From assembly GCA_944323695.1 (NCBI GenBank), contig CALUTI010000007.1:1-64000 (forward strand): 64,000 nucleotides of DNA. The letters are read 5' to 3'. The translations under genes and the position numbers were made by a program. The notes beneath the pieces were generated by a model. The model ran no database searches. It was not told the origin of the DNA and saw only the letters and a list, made by a program, of their open reading frames with translations. Below are positions 1-64,000 of this stretch, piece after piece. Every line of letters begins with the position of its first letter. Positions within the stretch are counted from its first letter, which is position 1. This stretch comes from Candidatus Gastranaerophilales bacterium. Lineage in GTDB: Bacteria; Cyanobacteriota; Vampirovibrionia; Gastranaerophilales; Gastranaerophilaceae.

Positions 1-3
1 TTT

Positions 4-161
4 CCTCGCCCCTTGTGGGAGAGGAAAGAATTTCTTAATGAACGCAGTGAATTTAGAAATTCAGGTGAGGGGTCAAAAACTTTGGCTAATCGTAAACCCC
101 TCACCCGCATTTGTAGCTCACTATGTTCGCACAACTGCGTCCTCTCCCACAAGGGGCGAGG
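4..161. repeat. Palindromic element in front of the first pilin-like gene
   Basis: A perfect 21-bp inverted repeat forms the ends (4-24 and 141-161), with a second inner pair (GTGAGGGGT near 65-73 and ACCCCTCAC near 96-104), so the whole 158 bp can fold into one long hairpin. It lies directly upstream of the pilin ATG at 163, and the pilin reading frame stays open right through it to the window edge. It resembles a short non-autonomous palindromic repeat. The sequence near 44735-44775 in front of the second pilin-like gene is also rich in hairpins but is not the same repeat. Confidence 0.7.
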
Positions 162-162
162 A

Positions 163-954
163 ATGGTTTCTTCAAAACATGCTGCCTTTACTTTGGCCGA
201 AGTTCTTATAACCCTTGGAATAATCGGAATAGTTGCAGCAATGACAATACCGACGTTGATTGCAAATTATCAGGAAAAACAGACAATATCACGCTTACAA
301 AAGGCTTATGCAACACTGAAAAATGCATTAGAAATGGCAAAAGTAGACCATGGAGATTATGCAATGTGGTCTTGGAATCAAATCCCGCAGGAAGATTCAA
401 AAAGGATACAGTATTTTTGGGAAACTTATGGATTTCCACATTTAAAAGTAGCCAAAAAATGTTTTCCCGATACGGATCCCTGCAGGTCTCAATTTAGGAT
501 AAATGATACTACATTATCAAATCCTGATACTAATAATGGTGCATTTATATTAAATGACGGAACATCTGTTTTCAGTTGGGCAGGAGGAAATACTTATTTC
601 CCGCATGTTTGGCTTTATGTTGACATAAATGGAGATTCAAAACCCAACGAAATGGGCAAAGACATGTTTGTCATGTATTTTTCACCTAATAATCCCGGTA
701 ATAAAATAGGTTCAGTTGACGATGACGGGAATTTTGTAGATTCGGGTAAAGTTATGCAAAACGGATATGGATTAACCTTATATGGAGAAGCCAATGGAGT
801 GACGGTTGATGATCTATTGGATCCAAATTTTGTAATGCAGTCAGAAACAGGTGTAAATACTAATATAAGCTGTACAAGAGCAGGCAAAAGACAAACCTGC
901 GCTGCCGCAATAAAATTGAACAACTGGAAGATTCCTGACGGTTATCTGGAATAA
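163..954 (+). CDS. Type IV prepilin-like protein, first copy
   Basis: From the ATG at 163 the protein has 263 residues. A short basic leader (MVSSKHAA) is followed by FTLAEVLITLGIIGIVAA, the N-methylation/cleavage signal and hydrophobic helix of type IV pilins and type II secretion pseudopilins; cleavage before the Phe by a prepilin peptidase is expected. The rest is a globular domain with VDINGDSKPNEMGKD in the middle and a C-terminal NNWKIPDGYLE, both shared in pattern with the copy at 44.9 kb. The frame is open from base 1, so a longer leader starting outside the window is possible, as at the two other loci. An AAGGGG six bases before ATG 163 could serve as ribosome binding site. The stop touches the stop of the convergent decarboxylase gene. 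Confidence 0.85.
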   Translation: MVSSKHAAFTLAEVLITLGIIGIVAAMTIPTLIANYQEKQTISRLQKAYATLKNALEMAKVDHGDYAMWSWNQIPQEDSKRIQYFWETYGFPHLKVAKKCFPDTDPCRSQFRINDTTLSNPDTNNGAFILNDGTSVFSWAGGNTYFPHVWLYVDINGDSKPNEMGKDMFVMYFSPNNPGNKIGSVDDDGNFVDSGKVMQNGYGLTLYGEANGVTVDDLLDPNFVMQSETGVNTNISCTRAGKRQTCAAAIKLNNWKIPDGYLE

Positions 955-43923: not shown

Positions 43924-44001
43924 ATTTTGATTTTACTATAAAAAATGTTACAAGTTGTATTATTCTTTTTGTTATGGGATAATAATTTTACAGGAGAATT
44001 C

Positions 44002-44643
44002 ATGAAAAAGGGCATATTAACATTTTGTTTTTGTTTTTTACTGACAATGTCACAGGCAATTGCTGAATGCACATGTAAGCCCGAGTGCCAGTGTTCTCCG
44101 ACATGCAGCTGTGATTGCAAAACCAAGTTGAAAAATGCTAAATATTCCTCTTATAAGCCAAGAGAAATTTTTGCGGATGATTTGAAGTTTAACCGTAATT
44201 TTGCAGATCAGGTTAAAAAAGAACGCGCAGCTGTTTCTAACGCTCTTGGTTTAACCGAAGAACAGGCTAAATGCAGAGTTGAAATGACCAGAAAAAATAC
44301 CGTTGTTCTTCAGGAAAAATTCCGCACTCTTTACGATGAAAACTATAAATTGAAGGTTTTGAAGGCTGAAAATGCTGCTAAAAATGCTATTAAAGCTCAA
44401 GAAGACAAAATAAACTGTATTAAAAAAGAAATTAAAGCTATTGTCGAACAGGAAAATAAAGAATTCAATAAAATTCTTGACCGCGATCAGCGTGCTAAAT
44501 TGAGAATGATACAAAAACTTCAGCGTAAAGCGATGAAGGAAAGCGCCAAGCAAAAGAATTATTACAAATCAAATCCCAAAATGCGGCCTTTTGCAATGCC
44601 GGAAAAACAAAATTGCGATTGTGTTACAGGAGAATTAGAATAA
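44002..44643 (+). CDS. Exported Cys-rich, CpxP/Spy-like protein
   Basis: The 213-residue protein has a signal peptide (MKKGILTFCFCFLLTMSQAIA) directly followed by a cysteine cluster, ECTCKPECQCSPTCSCDCK, with seven Cys in C-x-C and C-x3-C spacing, as in metal-binding tails. The remainder is a charged helical domain with LGLTEEQAKCRVEM and LDRDQRAKLRMIQKLQ, resembling the LTxxQ repeats of Spy/CpxP periplasmic chaperones. A metal-sensing or metal-binding periplasmic role is inferred. ATG 44002 follows ACAGGAG. Its stop overlaps the ribosome binding site of the pilin leader, so the two are likely cotranscribed. Confidence 0.75.
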   Translation: MKKGILTFCFCFLLTMSQAIAECTCKPECQCSPTCSCDCKTKLKNAKYSSYKPREIFADDLKFNRNFADQVKKERAAVSNALGLTEEQAKCRVEMTRKNTVVLQEKFRTLYDENYKLKVLKAENAAKNAIKAQEDKINCIKKEIKAIVEQENKEFNKILDRDQRAKLRMIQKLQRKAMKESAKQKNYYKSNPKMRPFAMPEKQNCDCVTGELE

Positions 44644-44654
44644 GGAGAAAAGCA

Positions 44655-44702
44655 ATGAAAAACAAAGGATTTTTACAAAACGGGGGGGGGCGTCTCTCCT
44701 AG
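44655..44702 (+). CDS. Short leader reading frame with G9 tract (pilin locus 2)
   Basis: A strong AAGGAG at 44642-44647 lies at good distance before ATG 44655. The frame reads MKNKGFLQNGGGRLS and stops at TAG 44700-44702. Codons 10-12 are a run of nine G. Adding one G (or removing two) would move into the frame that runs without a stop through 56 codons to the pilin gene, giving MKNKGFLQNGGGASLLARFN and so on. The same arrangement occurs at 63310. Whether the short frame is a regulatory leader or the off state of a longer pilin gene is not decided. Confidence 0.6.
   Translation: MKNKGFLQNGGGRLS
44682..44690 (+). repeat. G9 homopolymer in the pilin locus 2 leader
   Basis: Nine consecutive G in a low G+C genome, inside translated sequence and directly after AAAAC. 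Such tracts gain or lose bases by strand slippage. A second tract of identical length lies at 63337-63345. Confidence 0.9.
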
Positions 44703-44857
44703 CTAGATTTAACAAGGGTTTTGACGAATTGTTACCCTCGCCCCTCAAGGGCGGGAGGGAAAATTTTGTGAGCGAAGCTCACGGTAAAGAACTTAACGTC
44801 CTAACGTCTTATCGTCTTAACGACTTTAAAAAGAAAGCCGGTGCTACGCACGTAGGC

Positions 44858-45610
44858 ATGTCCGTCAATATTCGTCGTGCCGCGTTTACTCTCGCTGAGG
44901 TCTTGATAACCCTTGGCATAATCGGTGTTGTGGCAGCGATGACTATTCCGACGCTTATCGCGAATTATCAGAAAAAGCAGACTGTATCAAAATTAAAACA
45001 AACGTATTCAATAATATCTCAAGCGCTAACCATGGCACAGGCGGAGCATGGCGATACAACTACATGGGATGTCGGAGGAATATATGACACTGCAACAGAC
45101 GATCCGAATTTTAATCATGAGGAAGCAATAACAAATTTTGCTACAAAATATTTTATACCATATTTGAAGGTATCTAAGGATTTTGGATATACTACATTTA
45201 ATAGAATTGATTATGATGGAGACTATCTCCCTGTGACAGGGACTATATCAAACAGCGCTAATGCTCTCGGTTATATACTGCGTTTATCTAATGATGTCCT
45301 AATTAGAATAGCGATTGGTACCGGCTGCTTGGATGGCGAAAGAAATCCGGATGACACTTGTGTTGTTCGAACATACAAGAATATAGTATTCAAAGTGGAT
45401 ATAAATGGATTTCAAAAACCAAATACTGTAGGTAAAGATGTTTTTAATATGACATTTGATTTACGCAAAAAGATTTTCGGATTTCATAATTACGGTACAA
45501 GTACAAGACAACGGTATTTAGACAAATGCAAAACAGATAGCGATGCACAAGTATGCGGATATCTTATATTTCTTGACGGCTGGGAAATTAAGGACGATTA
45601 TCCGTGGTAA
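44858..45610 (+). CDS. Type IV prepilin-like protein, second copy
   Basis: From ATG 44858 the product has 250 residues: leader MSVNIRRAA, then FTLAEVLITLGIIGVVAAMT, the prepilin cleavage site and helix, then a globular domain with a possible disulfide (GCLDGERNPDDTC) and VDINGFQKPNTVGKDVF, a motif shared with copy 1. No ribosome binding site precedes ATG 44858. The same frame is open upstream to the G9 tract, and a TTG at 44729 is another in-frame start. One extra G would attach it to the well-initiated ATG 44655. Bases 44990-45417 are identical to the copy at the window end. A terminator follows. Confidence 0.85.
   Translation: MSVNIRRAAFTLAEVLITLGIIGVVAAMTIPTLIANYQKKQTVSKLKQTYSIISQALTMAQAEHGDTTTWDVGGIYDTATDDPNFNHEEAITNFATKYFIPYLKVSKDFGYTTFNRIDYDGDYLPVTGTISNSANALGYILRLSNDVLIRIAIGTGCLDGERNPDDTCVVRTYKNIVFKVDINGFQKPNTVGKDVFNMTFDLRKKIFGFHNYGTSTRQRYLDKCKTDSDAQVCGYLIFLDGWEIKDDYPW
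44990..45417 (+). repeat. 428-bp segment identical to 63573-64000
   Basis: Every base from 44990 to 45417 matches 63573-64000, where the window ends, so the true identical stretch may be longer. Just upstream the two genes differ at many silent positions, so the boundary lies within the pilin coding sequence, after the conserved N-terminal helix. Confidence 0.95.
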
Positions 45611-45619
45611 AATTACTTA

Positions 45620-45644
45620 AAAAGCGGCTGTTTCGGCCGCTTTT
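45620..45644. terminator. Terminator after pilin copy 2
   Basis: AAAAGCGGC (45620-45628) pairs with GCCGCTTTT (45636-45644). It lies between convergent genes and can serve both. Confidence 0.85.
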
Positions 45645-45652
45645 ATTTTCCC

Positions 45653-45925
45653 CTATTTCCATAAACTTTTTATTTTATCAATTAATTCTTTTATCCATTT
45701 AGTCAAGTCAAAGTCATCTTCTTCGGGTAAATTAAGTTTTCCGCTCATTGTGAAGGTGTCGTATTCGGGTTTTTGAGCGAAGATATTAATTTCTTCATGT
45801 TTTTCTTCGTGTTCTTTTCGACCCTGACTCATGTAGCCAAGGTTCCCTGCACCGCCGTCGTTTTGCATATTCGCTGCGGCTTTGATTACCGGTTTTGAAC
45901 TCAAAACGTTTACATCGAAACTCAT
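45653..45925 (-). CDS. Hypothetical protein (90 aa)
   Basis: The protein starts MSFDVNVLSSKPVIKAAANM and ends with an amphipathic helix (LTKWIKELIDKIKSLWK). The middle is rich in Lys/Glu/His (GRKEHEEKHEEINIF). No family, signal peptide or membrane segment is seen. The N-terminal style (short strand, then low-complexity, no export signal) resembles the IEFNGKGNVNN-family proteins, but the sequence is not the same. It follows a GGGGACGG-type ribosome binding site. Confidence 0.65.
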   Translation of the reverse strand: MSFDVNVLSSKPVIKAAANMQNDGGAGNLGYMSQGRKEHEEKHEEINIFAQKPEYDTFTMSGKLNLPEEDDFDLTKWIKELIDKIKSLWK

Positions 45926-56244: not shown

Positions 56245-56260
<16 letters not shown>

Positions 56261-56306
56261 AATAAAAAAGATGGGTTTATCCCATCTTTTTTATTTACTT
56301 TGGGAC
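56245..56306 (+). repeat. 62-bp direct repeat, copy at the tRNA-Arg 3' end
   Basis: This copy covers the last 16 bases of tRNA-Arg, a terminator hairpin (AAAAAAGATGGG/CCCATCTTTTTT) and 14 bases more. It is identical to 56452-56513. Confidence 0.95.
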
Positions 56307-56451: not shown

Positions 56452-56513
56452 AATCGCATCCAGGGTAAATAAAAAAGATGGGTTTATCCCATCTTTTTTA
56501 TTTACTTTGGGAC
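56452..56513 (+). repeat. 62-bp direct repeat, second copy
   Basis: Identical to 56245-56306, 207 bp away. It includes a 3' tRNA fragment and a duplicate terminator. The downstream minus-strand gene ends inside it (56498). Confidence 0.95.
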
Positions 56514-60928: not shown

Positions 60929-63163
60929 TTACAATCTCGGAACTGTTAATAACATTTCATATGGTATGCAGGATTCTTTGACACCCATATTTGCACTTAT
61001 AAACATAAATTCAAGAGTCTCATTATTTTCGATTTCCAACAGATCAAACGGAATACTCAAATCAATAGTATTTACAAAAACATAATTGATATCTTTGTCA
61101 TTTTCTAATGCCCAGATGTTGCCGGGGATAGATTTTACCATCCTGACAAGTTTTAGTTCATCATTGTTGATTGACAATTGTAATTCGTTATGGAATTTTT
61201 CTTTCAATAGCGGCAGAACATTTTCTGTTTTATTAATAAGTCTGACAGGAGAAAGTGAATGTTTTTTGTTTAAATTTCGCATATAAATATACATTTGATA
61301 GGTTTTCATCTTTAAATCAGGATCATCAAATATGTATTTATTTAAGTAAAATCTTATATAAAAATTATTTTTGTCATAACCATAACAAATTCTGTCAAAG
61401 AATTTGGAATCTCTTAAGACAGGTCCGTCAGGAATTTCTATACATCCGGCATTCAGCCAGGAATCGTCATCTGTATTCCCGTCAATTAATGGAGTGAATT
61501 CACCTTTAGGGTATCTCGACGGTTTTGTAAAGGCAGATGCCAGCGGTTCATCTAAGTATTCCGGAACTTTTAGCCCAAGATACAGATAAATATTTTTTAA
61601 ATGTTCACGGAAAATGTAGTCAAAAATATTATCACGGCCTGAATCATTAGGCTCTCCATACCACCAGAACCAGTCACTGCCTTCACATATGAAAAGCTCT
61701 TTTCTTGCATCTTTTATATGCGGGTTTAGTGGATGTTTTTTAACATATTTTGAAAAGTCATCACGGACTCGTTTAAGATAATTCCATGCAAGATTTTTTA
61801 AAGGTTCATCTATCCATAGTTTAAAGTTTCTGTTTATCCATGAGCCGGAACTTAGTTTTGCCAACGGTTTGTGGTTCGTTTCTTTGTCTAAATATTCACT
61901 GATTAAGACTGTTTCTAATGTTTCATCGTCTTCTATAAGTGTATAAAGTGTTTTTAAGAAGGACAAGCCGTCTTCCATGTAGTTTTCCCAGCAGTTTTCT
62001 CCGTCCATTGCAATGGTCAGAAGATGATTGTTATCCGGAGATGATAACAGTTTGCTCTGGATAACTTTAATTCTGTCGTAAAGATCATTTGCTGCTGCTA
62101 TCGGGTTGTGGTTCGGATATTCAAAACTTATCAGGTTCGGGATAGTGCTGTCACGGAAAACCATTTTTATATCTTTATTTTTTATTTTATAATCGTAAGA
62201 TTTCATAAGGTGGTAAGGATCTTCCAGATGACCTTTAAAATCTCGTATAAATTCAAAATTTATTGAGTCGGATAAAATCCCTTCGTCAGAAATTGTCCAG
62301 TCAACGCCAAGCGTTGTCAGCATATAAAGTGTTTTCGGACTTACGCAGTGTTCAGAAGGCCAGATTCCTCTCGGACGTTTTCCAAAAATTTCTTCTATTC
62401 TGTCGAGCGCCATTTTTGTCTGCATTTTTCCGTCAAGATAGGTTTTTAACACCTGCGGAGCATTTTCCGTTGTTTTTTTAATACTTTTATTATCAAGCAA
62501 AATAGGCAAAATCGGGTGATAATACGGACTTGTTGTAATTTCAATCCTGCCTTTATCAAGATATTTTTTATATGCGGGAATTATCTGCCTTATAATGTCC
62601 CGCTGGATTTCTATTATGTTAACCCTATCTTCAAGAGTATAATCTTTACCCTTTTTGTCTAATTTTTTCAATTCGGGATATTTTGTCTTATAAACAGGAT
62701 CAATCCATGCAAGATTAAATAACGCCATTAAATCTGAATATTCCTGATTTGAAAAAACATCAATTCCTGCCTCCGGATTTGTTTGGATTTTATGATATAG
62801 CCTGTTGTATTCCTCATAAGGATAAATCATGGATTGATAATTCGCATCAAAGAAATTGTTTATTATAAACAACTTTGCATCATCAGAAAGCATCTCAACA
62901 GGAGTTATAGTCAATCTTGAATGTATATCATGAGCATCATGTTCTGCGTAATCAATTATTGAATCCAAAAGTACAGGTACAAGGTTAAAATTCAGCTTAA
63001 TTCGTTTAAATTTGTCTAAAAGTTCAACCATATCAAGATAATCTTTTACAGCATGCAGTCTTACCCATGGCATTAAATAATCACCATCCGGAGTGAGTTG
63101 GTAAACAGGCTGGTGCATGTGCCAATAGAATGCAATCGATAACTTTTTGGTTTTGCTCATCAT
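60929..63163 (-). CDS. Glycoside hydrolase family 57 protein with C-terminal extra domain
   Basis: The 744-residue protein has GH57 motifs in order: YWHMHQPVYQL near residue 13, FNLVPVLLDSI near 57, GIWPSEHCVSP near 264 with the nucleophile Glu, and IAMDGENCWENY near 384 with the acid/base Asp. GH57 enzymes act on alpha-glucans (amylase, 4-alpha-glucanotransferase, branching). From about residue 560 a DOMON/CBM9-like strand domain follows (DSWLNAGCIEIPDGPVLRDS, CYGYDKNNFYIRFYLN), probably for carbohydrate binding. No signal peptide, so it likely acts on internal glycogen. Confidence 0.9.
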   Translation of the reverse strand: MMSKTKKLSIAFYWHMHQPVYQLTPDGDYLMPWVRLHAVKDYLDMVELLDKFKRIKLNFNLVPVLLDSIIDYAEHDAHDIHSRLTITPVEMLSDDAKLFIINNFFDANYQSMIYPYEEYNRLYHKIQTNPEAGIDVFSNQEYSDLMALFNLAWIDPVYKTKYPELKKLDKKGKDYTLEDRVNIIEIQRDIIRQIIPAYKKYLDKGRIEITTSPYYHPILPILLDNKSIKKTTENAPQVLKTYLDGKMQTKMALDRIEEIFGKRPRGIWPSEHCVSPKTLYMLTTLGVDWTISDEGILSDSINFEFIRDFKGHLEDPYHLMKSYDYKIKNKDIKMVFRDSTIPNLISFEYPNHNPIAAANDLYDRIKVIQSKLLSSPDNNHLLTIAMDGENCWENYMEDGLSFLKTLYTLIEDDETLETVLISEYLDKETNHKPLAKLSSGSWINRNFKLWIDEPLKNLAWNYLKRVRDDFSKYVKKHPLNPHIKDARKELFICEGSDWFWWYGEPNDSGRDNIFDYIFREHLKNIYLYLGLKVPEYLDEPLASAFTKPSRYPKGEFTPLIDGNTDDDSWLNAGCIEIPDGPVLRDSKFFDRICYGYDKNNFYIRFYLNKYIFDDPDLKMKTYQMYIYMRNLNKKHSLSPVRLINKTENVLPLLKEKFHNELQLSINNDELKLVRMVKSIPGNIWALENDKDINYVFVNTIDLSIPFDLLEIENNETLEFMFISANMGVKESCIPYEMLLTVPRL

Positions 63164-63309: not shown

Positions 63310-63357
63310 ATGGAAATTATGAAAAAATTCAAAAACGGGGGGGGGCATCTCCTCTAA
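63310..63357 (+). CDS. Short leader reading frame with G9 tract (pilin locus 3)
   Basis: AGGAG (63297-63301) lies eight bases before ATG 63310. The frame reads MEIMKKFKNGGGHLL and stops at TAA 63355-63357. As at 44655, codons 10-12 are nine G; one added G opens a frame of 32 further codons into the pilin gene, giving GGGASPLSSNSVCFRDILPH and so on. The similarity of this module at both loci (ribosome binding site, spacing, AAAAC-G9, early stop) makes it unlikely to be accidental. Confidence 0.6.
   Translation: MEIMKKFKNGGGHLL
63337..63345 (+). repeat. G9 homopolymer in the pilin locus 3 leader
   Basis: Nine consecutive G after AAAAAC, the same length and position in the leader as at 44682-44690. 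Confidence 0.9.
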
Positions 63358-63440: not shown

Positions 63441-64000
63441 ATGACGAATTATAAATCAAGAATGGGTTTCACCTTGGCAGAAGTGTTAATAACGCTTGGA
63501 ATAATTGGTGTTGTAGCAGCAATGACAATACCGACATTGATTGCAAATTATCAGAAAAAGCAGACCGTATCCAAATTAAAACAAACGTATTCAATAATAT
63601 CTCAAGCGCTAACCATGGCACAGGCGGAGCATGGCGATACAACTACATGGGATGTCGGAGGAATATATGACACTGCAACAGACGATCCGAATTTTAATCA
63701 TGAGGAAGCAATAACAAATTTTGCTACAAAATATTTTATACCATATTTGAAGGTATCTAAGGATTTTGGATATACTACATTTAATAGAATTGATTATGAT
63801 GGAGACTATCTCCCTGTGACAGGGACTATATCAAACAGCGCTAATGCTCTCGGTTATATACTGCGTTTATCTAATGATGTCCTAATTAGAATAGCGATTG
63901 GTACCGGCTGCTTGGATGGCGAAAGAAATCCGGATGACACTTGTGTTGTTCGAACATACAAGAATATAGTATTCAAAGTGGATATAAATGGATTTCAAAA
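63441..64000 (+). CDS. Type IV prepilin-like protein, third copy (cut by window end)
   Basis: The frame from ATG 63441 starts MTNYKSRMG, then FTLAEVLITLGIIGVVAAMT, and runs out of the window after VDINGFQ. No ribosome binding site precedes ATG 63441 or 63462. The frame is open upstream to the G9 tract. From 63573 on it is base-for-base identical to 44990-45417 of the second copy, whereas the helix-coding part differs at silent sites. The end of the gene lies outside the window. Confidence 0.85.
   Translation, partial: MTNYKSRMGFTLAEVLITLGIIGVVAAMTIPTLIANYQKKQTVSKLKQTYSIISQALTMAQAEHGDTTTWDVGGIYDTATDDPNFNHEEAITNFATKYFIPYLKVSKDFGYTTFNRIDYDGDYLPVTGTISNSANALGYILRLSNDVLIRIAIGTGCLDGERNPDDTCVVRTYKNIVFKVDINGFQ
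63573..64000 (+). repeat. 428-bp segment identical to 44990-45417
   Basis: Same orientation as the copy at 44990, offset 18,583 bp. No mismatch is seen up to the window end. Confidence 0.95.

Follow-up and report, generated by a model that had tools for sequence, protein, structure and literature searches.

The DNA considered here (the window) is a stretch of 64,000 nucleotides that forms the first 64 kb of the 117.6-kb contig C7 in a draft metagenome-assembled genome (MAG) of Candidatus Gastranaerophilales; Gastranaerophilales are non-photosynthetic gut relatives of cyanobacteria. The assembly (G000) amounts to 1.73 Mb in 19 contigs and is 97.8% complete. Two pilin genes lying 18.6 kb apart on this contig, called copy 2 and copy 3, share 619 bp without any difference (44990-45608 in copy 2, C7:63573-64191 in copy 3), and this tract very probably results from a recent non-reciprocal homologous exchange (gene conversion) within a large, dispersed and phase-variable family of type IV pilin-like genes. 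An earlier note on the window had reported 428 bp of identity up to the window end (44990-45417 against 63573-64000) and had explained it by recent gene conversion; that identity proved to be exact, and its right end was found by following the contig past the window (L051, C7:60000-79999).

The tract shared by copies 2 and 3

As the earlier note had placed it, the left switch lies inside the coding sequence, after the conserved N-terminal segment. The 105 bp preceding it (44885-44989) contain 22 differences in 20 codons, all 22 of them synonymous, against none in the following 619 bp; under an even spread of differences along the gene, the probability of so strong a clustering is about 1e-21. 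The right end falls inside the last codon, where copy 2 reads TGG TAA and copy 3 reads TGG TTT TAG. The identity running far beyond the genes that the earlier note had set against its own reading was not found: it ends at the stop codon, and the leaders and both outer flanks of the two copies are unrelated, so that a large duplication is ruled out.

The sister species G009 (records CALVER and BRZ_RB__bin26) supplied relatives of both parts of copy 2. Its pilin L141 differs from copy 2 at 2 of 223 positions over 44781-45003 (about 99% identity), and at some 75 positions in the remainder as far as 45608. Downstream of 45004, copy 2 is 88% identical to L141 and 96% identical to L142 (the same stretch as L238), the gene that occupies the copy-3 slot of G009. 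The cassette of L142 is 96% identical to that of G000 copy 3, and its downstream flank matches G000 at 90% over 2.2 kb, being identical directly after the stop. L141 and L142 are discordant at 76 sites in 45044-45608, of which copy 2 follows L142 at 61, L141 at 14 and neither at one. Because these affinities switch at 44990-45003, copy 2 consists of an L141-like 5' part and a 3' part like that of copy 3 in its slot (slot 3); the left breakpoint is bracketed to 14 bp by the differences at 44989 (from copy 3) and 45004 (from L141). With a difference-free tract, a bracketed breakpoint and both recipient and donor lineages present in the sister species, the recent conversion first proposed for the shorter identity is well supported. 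Judged by the 4% by which slot-3 cassettes differ across the split from G009, the exchange is younger than that split, and a comparison of these sequences indicates that it probably ran from slot 3, as donor, to the slot of copy 2 (slot 2).

The resident slot-2 gene would thus have had a 5' module like that of L141, and slot-3 sequence would have overwritten it from about mature residue 36 to the stop codon, presumably by RecA-type homologous recombination. Homology anchors would have been provided by the conserved parts at either end, the N-terminal coding region and the C-terminal end (..DGWEIKDDYPW); for the N-terminal segment, such a role had been suggested earlier and is supported here.

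A dispersed family with G tracts in its leaders

Copy 2 matches TIGR02532 (18.9 bits, cut-off 16.3; prepilin N-terminal cleavage/methylation motif) and copy 3 matches PF07963 (22.5 bits, cut-off 21.2; prepilin motif), and an AlphaFold model consists of a 53-residue N-terminal helix (residues 6-58) and a globular alpha/beta domain (pLDDT 88). Since the globular domains of pilins diverge widely, membership rests on N-terminal features, and it is the prepilin motif and the long N-terminal helix that these proteins have in common with the type IV pilins and pseudopilins of Gastranaerophilales, in which pil genes have been reported earlier (PMC5877343). Family size, phase tracts and mosaicism had no earlier description for Gastranaerophilales in the open-licence PMC literature that was searched. 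The genome has pilus ATPase genes of the assembly/retraction type and one prepilin peptidase, and expressed pilins would be expected to reach the cell surface.

Scripted analyses across the genome covered the 653 kb that surround pilins and G tracts. Eighty loci with a pilin N-terminus are dispersed in G000 (63 and 81 in two relatives), and about 50 of them carry a G tract inside the leader. About 46 pilins have a leader of the form AAGGAG..ATG..AAC-G9/10-CRTCTCYYCTA (class A), seven genes have another leader with tracts of G8-G12 (class B), and a third small class is present too. In class A leaders, those of copies 2 and 3 among them, translation with G9 stops after 15 codons whereas G10 would open a frame from the ATG to the pilin; both copies are therefore OFF. 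Over 8149 bp of class A leaders the pilin frame is free of stop codons, while the two other frames contain 305 and 165, which argues that long class A leaders are kept translatable. Of 49 scored units, 10 are ON and 39 OFF in the assembly, where one third would be expected ON (one-sided binomial p = 0.035). In the relatives, tracts are 9-13 long, apart from one G7, 14 units being ON and 38 OFF, and the loci L156 and L157, 98% identical, differ at the G tract; the variable lengths and this difference support slippage of the DNA. Frames and tract lengths are in agreement with the combined phase variation and cassette exchange suggested by the earlier note.

Alternatively, the G tract might be a fixed site of ribosomal frameshifting or transcriptional slippage, with no switch in the DNA and with G9 genes expressed at a constantly low level, which we consider unlikely. 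Such a site would fit the class A tracts of G000, which are overwhelmingly G9 (two G8A variants also keep that frame), and the capacity of the tract to pair with a conserved CUCC-rich stretch behind it; the near-constant G9 is thus what keeps this alternative alive. It is harder to reconcile with the tract lengths of 9-13 and all three frames seen in relatives, with the G8-G12 range of class B within G000, with those G000 genes that are G10 or otherwise in frame, or with the tract difference between two loci as similar as L156 and L157.

Several further features of the leaders were observed. In class A leaders (e.g., 44675-44710) a pairing of the conserved CUCUCC behind the tract with the tract itself or with the Shine-Dalgarno sequence is predicted, and the start codon and tract of class B leaders are enclosed by an inverted repeat made up of GGAGGTTAA and TTAACCTCC. 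Some long leaders (window 1-180; C3:31992, C3:108741, C9:67307) contain inverted repeats resembling intergenic repeat elements, with the pilin frame still open. Upstream of two related pilins (C10:16088 and C10:8952), G10 tracts followed by TACCATYYTTTAGG are found with stops in the pilin frame, where they perhaps mediate phase variation of the preceding gene.

Beyond the pair formed by copies 2 and 3, at least seven exact blocks of 132-356 bp, plus shorter ones, are common to non-allelic G000 pilins (Table 1). Unlike that pair, most of them lie in the leader or N-terminal part, with differing cassettes. The pilin C3:124682 is a mosaic in which adjoining exact blocks are held in common with three different genes. 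An exact match of 737 bp (C2:195992/196638) was discarded as a mere overlap of the stretches extracted around a tandem pair; that pair (C2:195992-196799) consists of divergent pilin-like genes without a G tract, with similar neighbouring matches in G008 and G010, and probably represents core minor pilins.

The slots themselves turn over. Slot 3 holds a pilin of the copy-3 type in G000 and G009, related cassettes with other leaders in G011, G008 and G010, unrelated pilins in G005, G006 and G002, and nothing in G012 and G014. Slot 2 holds differing pilins in G000, G008, G011 and G005, and nothing in G010 and G012. Additionally, L151 and L156 have flanks that are 98% and 95% identical, yet different pilins in one slot. 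Two layouts of another kind were seen. L156 and L157 share the upstream flank and the whole pilin, and are unrelated downstream from about the pilin stop codon, either through a rearrangement between pilin repeats or because a contig is chimeric. The pilin of L144 (E27__bin3) is bordered on one side by the left flank of the G000 slot at 74 kb and on the other by the slot-3 left-flank region, which looks like a chromosomal rearrangement through recombination of pilin genes.

Frames, tracts, blocks and slot turnover being observed, we infer from them a recombination route and its rate along the following lines. Each G-tract pilin unit is self-contained, with a ribosome site, ATG, short leader, G tract, variable leader, prepilin cleavage motif, helix and variable domain. 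A single G gained or lost would switch it from a product of 15 codons (OFF) to a full-length prepilin (ON) or back, homologous recombination between units, with the same two anchors as above, would rewrite the variable parts, and occasional insertion or deletion of whole units would change the content of a slot. A cell line could in this way change both which pilins are made and what they look like, which may help it to adhere and/or to evade host antibody or phage. The same patterns might also reflect neutral concerted evolution, in which a repetitive gene family varies without being selected for changes at the surface. Repeats can recombine homologously without dedicated machinery, and function is here deduced from sequence; still, the unbroken pilin frame in the long leaders, the presence of a G tract in about 50 genes and the fast turnover of slots between close relatives fit selection for variability better, and a purely neutral origin seems improbable.

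Duplication, assembly and points of doubt

A further alternative is that the slot-3 gene was recently duplicated into slot 2 and that its 5' part was then replaced by an L141-like module, which would amount to the same recombination viewed in reverse. Units are indeed absent as whole pieces from empty slots, and leader/N-terminal parts have been exchanged on their own elsewhere. However, two recent events would be required, and the identical tract starts in the middle of the gene and contains no slot-3 flank, so that this order of events appears somewhat less probable than either a neutral origin or a fixed frameshift site.

Least probable among the explanations weighed is an artefact in which the 3' half of copy 2 was routed through copy 3, or in which two similar cassettes were collapsed to a consensus. 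The genome is a draft MAG whose contigs break at pilin leaders, and for the opa gene families it was reported that short reads are unable to resolve them (PMC13183285). On the other hand, both copies lie in one 117.6-kb contig. In empty slots the sequence jumps from 44642 to 45611 (G012) or to 45620 (G010) at slot 2, and from 63281 to 64157 at slot 3 of G012, where a relic of the pilin end is kept (G014 is empty; all in G000 coordinates). The flank pairs are thus natural neighbours in the independent genomes G010, G012 and G014, so the outer joins are right and a gross mis-join is unlikely. A lost L141-like half would share just 14 bp (44990-45003) with copy 3, too short for a usual k-mer join, and the 5' module and this type of cassette were combined independently in L141 and L143. 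Even if copies about 98-99% identical had been collapsed, a recent exchange would have to be assumed.

Conversion within a phase-variable pilin family nevertheless has some points to answer. Near-identical copies differing by 1-2% could have been smoothed to exact identity, because the assembly is a draft MAG of 19 contigs, some of which end inside pilin leaders. The 14 of 76 discordant sites in the tract that favour L141 indicate that the donor differed from the L142 ancestor; the gene L142 is itself without its 5' end, at a contig edge, and L141 is not located in the copy-2 slot, sitting instead in the G009 slot where G000 has a pilin at C7:73994. A Foldseek search of the model against the PDB returned no solved structure at E <= 0.001. 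The class A tracts of G000 are nearly all G9, a narrower range than free slippage might give, and the data come from the assembly alone, so that switching is suggested by tract-length variation across loci and species.

Contig ends lie in pilin leaders at C1:1, C7:1, C7:117604, C18:6075 and C6:135162 of G000 and at many places in G009, whose class A tracts are often less than 200 bp from a contig end. Elsewhere in the window, an exact 62-bp direct repeat (56245-56306 and 56452-56513, 207 bp apart) carries a hairpin with A/T runs and is terminator-like. The product of the gene upstream of slot 2 had no match in Pfam or NCBIfam.

Table 1. Features of the window and exact blocks shared by other pilins of the G000 genome
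Feature	Position	Strand	Remarks
Copy 1 pilin	1..954	+	Contig starts within its leader; leader/N-terminal part 91% like pilin C6:134788, cassettes differ
Gene upstream of slot 2	43945..44643	+	232 aa, Cys-rich N-terminus; slot marker in other species
Copy 2 pilin unit, Shine-Dalgarno to stop codon	44643..45610	+	About the exact piece absent from the empty slot in G012 (G010 within ~10 bp)
Class A leader ORF (open reading frame), copy 2	44655..44702	+	ATG 44655, 15 codons, TAG 44700-44702; OFF as assembled
G9 tract, copy 2	44682..44690	+	G10 would fuse leader ORF to pilin
Copy 2 5' module	44781..45003	+	Differs from pilin L141 of the sister species at 2 of 223 bp
Conserved start of mature pilin (FTLAEVLITLGIIGVVAAMTIPTLIANYQKKQTVS), copy 2	44885..44989	+	Protein same as copy 3; 22 silent nucleotide differences
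Left breakpoint interval of putative conversion tract	44990..45003	+	Last copy 2/copy 3 difference 44989; first copy 2/L141 difference 45004
Putative converted tract, copy 2, rest of mature pilin	44990..45608	+	619 bp identical to C7:63573-64191
GH57 glycosyl hydrolase gene	60929..63163	-	Left marker of slot 3
Class A leader ORF, copy 3	63310..63357	+	ATG 63310, 15 codons, TAA; OFF as assembled
G9 tract, copy 3	63337..63345	+	
Copy 3 N-terminal pilin segment	63468..63572	+	Outside identical tract
Copy 3 part of identical tract within window	63573..64000	+	Probable donor; continues to C7:64191
Exact block, 356 bp	C13:16296/C18:5848		
Exact blocks, 243 and 143 bp	C1:142566/C1:80870		
Exact block, 174 bp	C3:124682/C1:203098		
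Exact block, 167 bp	C3:124682/C6:4917		
Exact block, 166 bp	C6:117512/C1:53236		
Exact block, 132 bp	C11:27404/C3:124682		

Related variation systems and significance

The earlier note had compared the exchange with the variable pilins of Neisseria. The geometry of exchange holds, as in pilE/pilS, in that a type IV pilin with a constant N-terminal coding anchor has its variable C-terminal part swapped by homologous recombination; the pilE/pilS layout does not. There are many complete genes here and no sign of a single expression locus, and leaders and N-terminal parts are exchanged as well. A search for silent, N-terminally truncated cassettes found none, all 26 cassette-like stretches in the genome lying in full-length pilin genes, and beside copy 2 no G-quadruplex motif (G3+N1-7 x4) occurs on either strand in 44501-45700.

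The closest working analogue appears to be the multi-locus, phase-variable Opa family, and by this analogy the present genes would form a pilin system that works like Opa. In the opa genes of Neisseria, gene conversion leaves identical allele pairs, loci are occupied or empty, and fewer genes are in frame than expected by chance (PMC13183285). The pilins likewise comprise scattered complete genes (80 N-terminal matches), identical allele pairs and occupied or empty loci; in about 50 of the 80 genes a slippable repeat within the 5' coding region determines the frame, and fewer genes are in frame than by chance (10 of 49). They differ in the protein, in the repeat (a G tract instead of CTCTT), in the number of loci (about 80 against 9-12), in a variable leader of up to nearly 600 bp, and in belonging to Cyanobacteriota instead of Neisseria. 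Membership of the Opa family itself was rejected, since the protein combines a pilin-like helix with an alpha/beta domain and is not an outer-membrane barrel.

Poly-G phase variation is familiar from Campylobacter and Neisseria, in which an in-frame G tract of about 9-11 switches a surface gene on or off; here, in comparison, dozens of pilin loci draw on a single homologous leader module that bears the tract. Most known cases of combined phase and antigenic variation come from pathogens, Neisseria among them. It is rather probable that a gut commensal branch of the Cyanobacteriota possesses such a combined system as well, with about 80 dispersed pilin loci, some 50 of them switched independently by G tracts, with leaders, N-terminal parts and variable domains passed between loci as separate modules, and with whole units that, among close relatives, come and go from fixed intergenic slots, and this may be among the largest distributed pilin variation systems seen. 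The comparison with a sister species resolves a breakpoint to 14 bp, and the pilin genes, which break and distort MAG assemblies, call for caution with such assemblies. If the proposed system is real, dozens of oddly annotated pilin genes would become one diversity-generating system, and its presence in an uncultured and apparently harmless lineage would suggest that commensals are under the same pressure as pathogens, be it from secretory antibody, pilus-binding phage or competition for niches.
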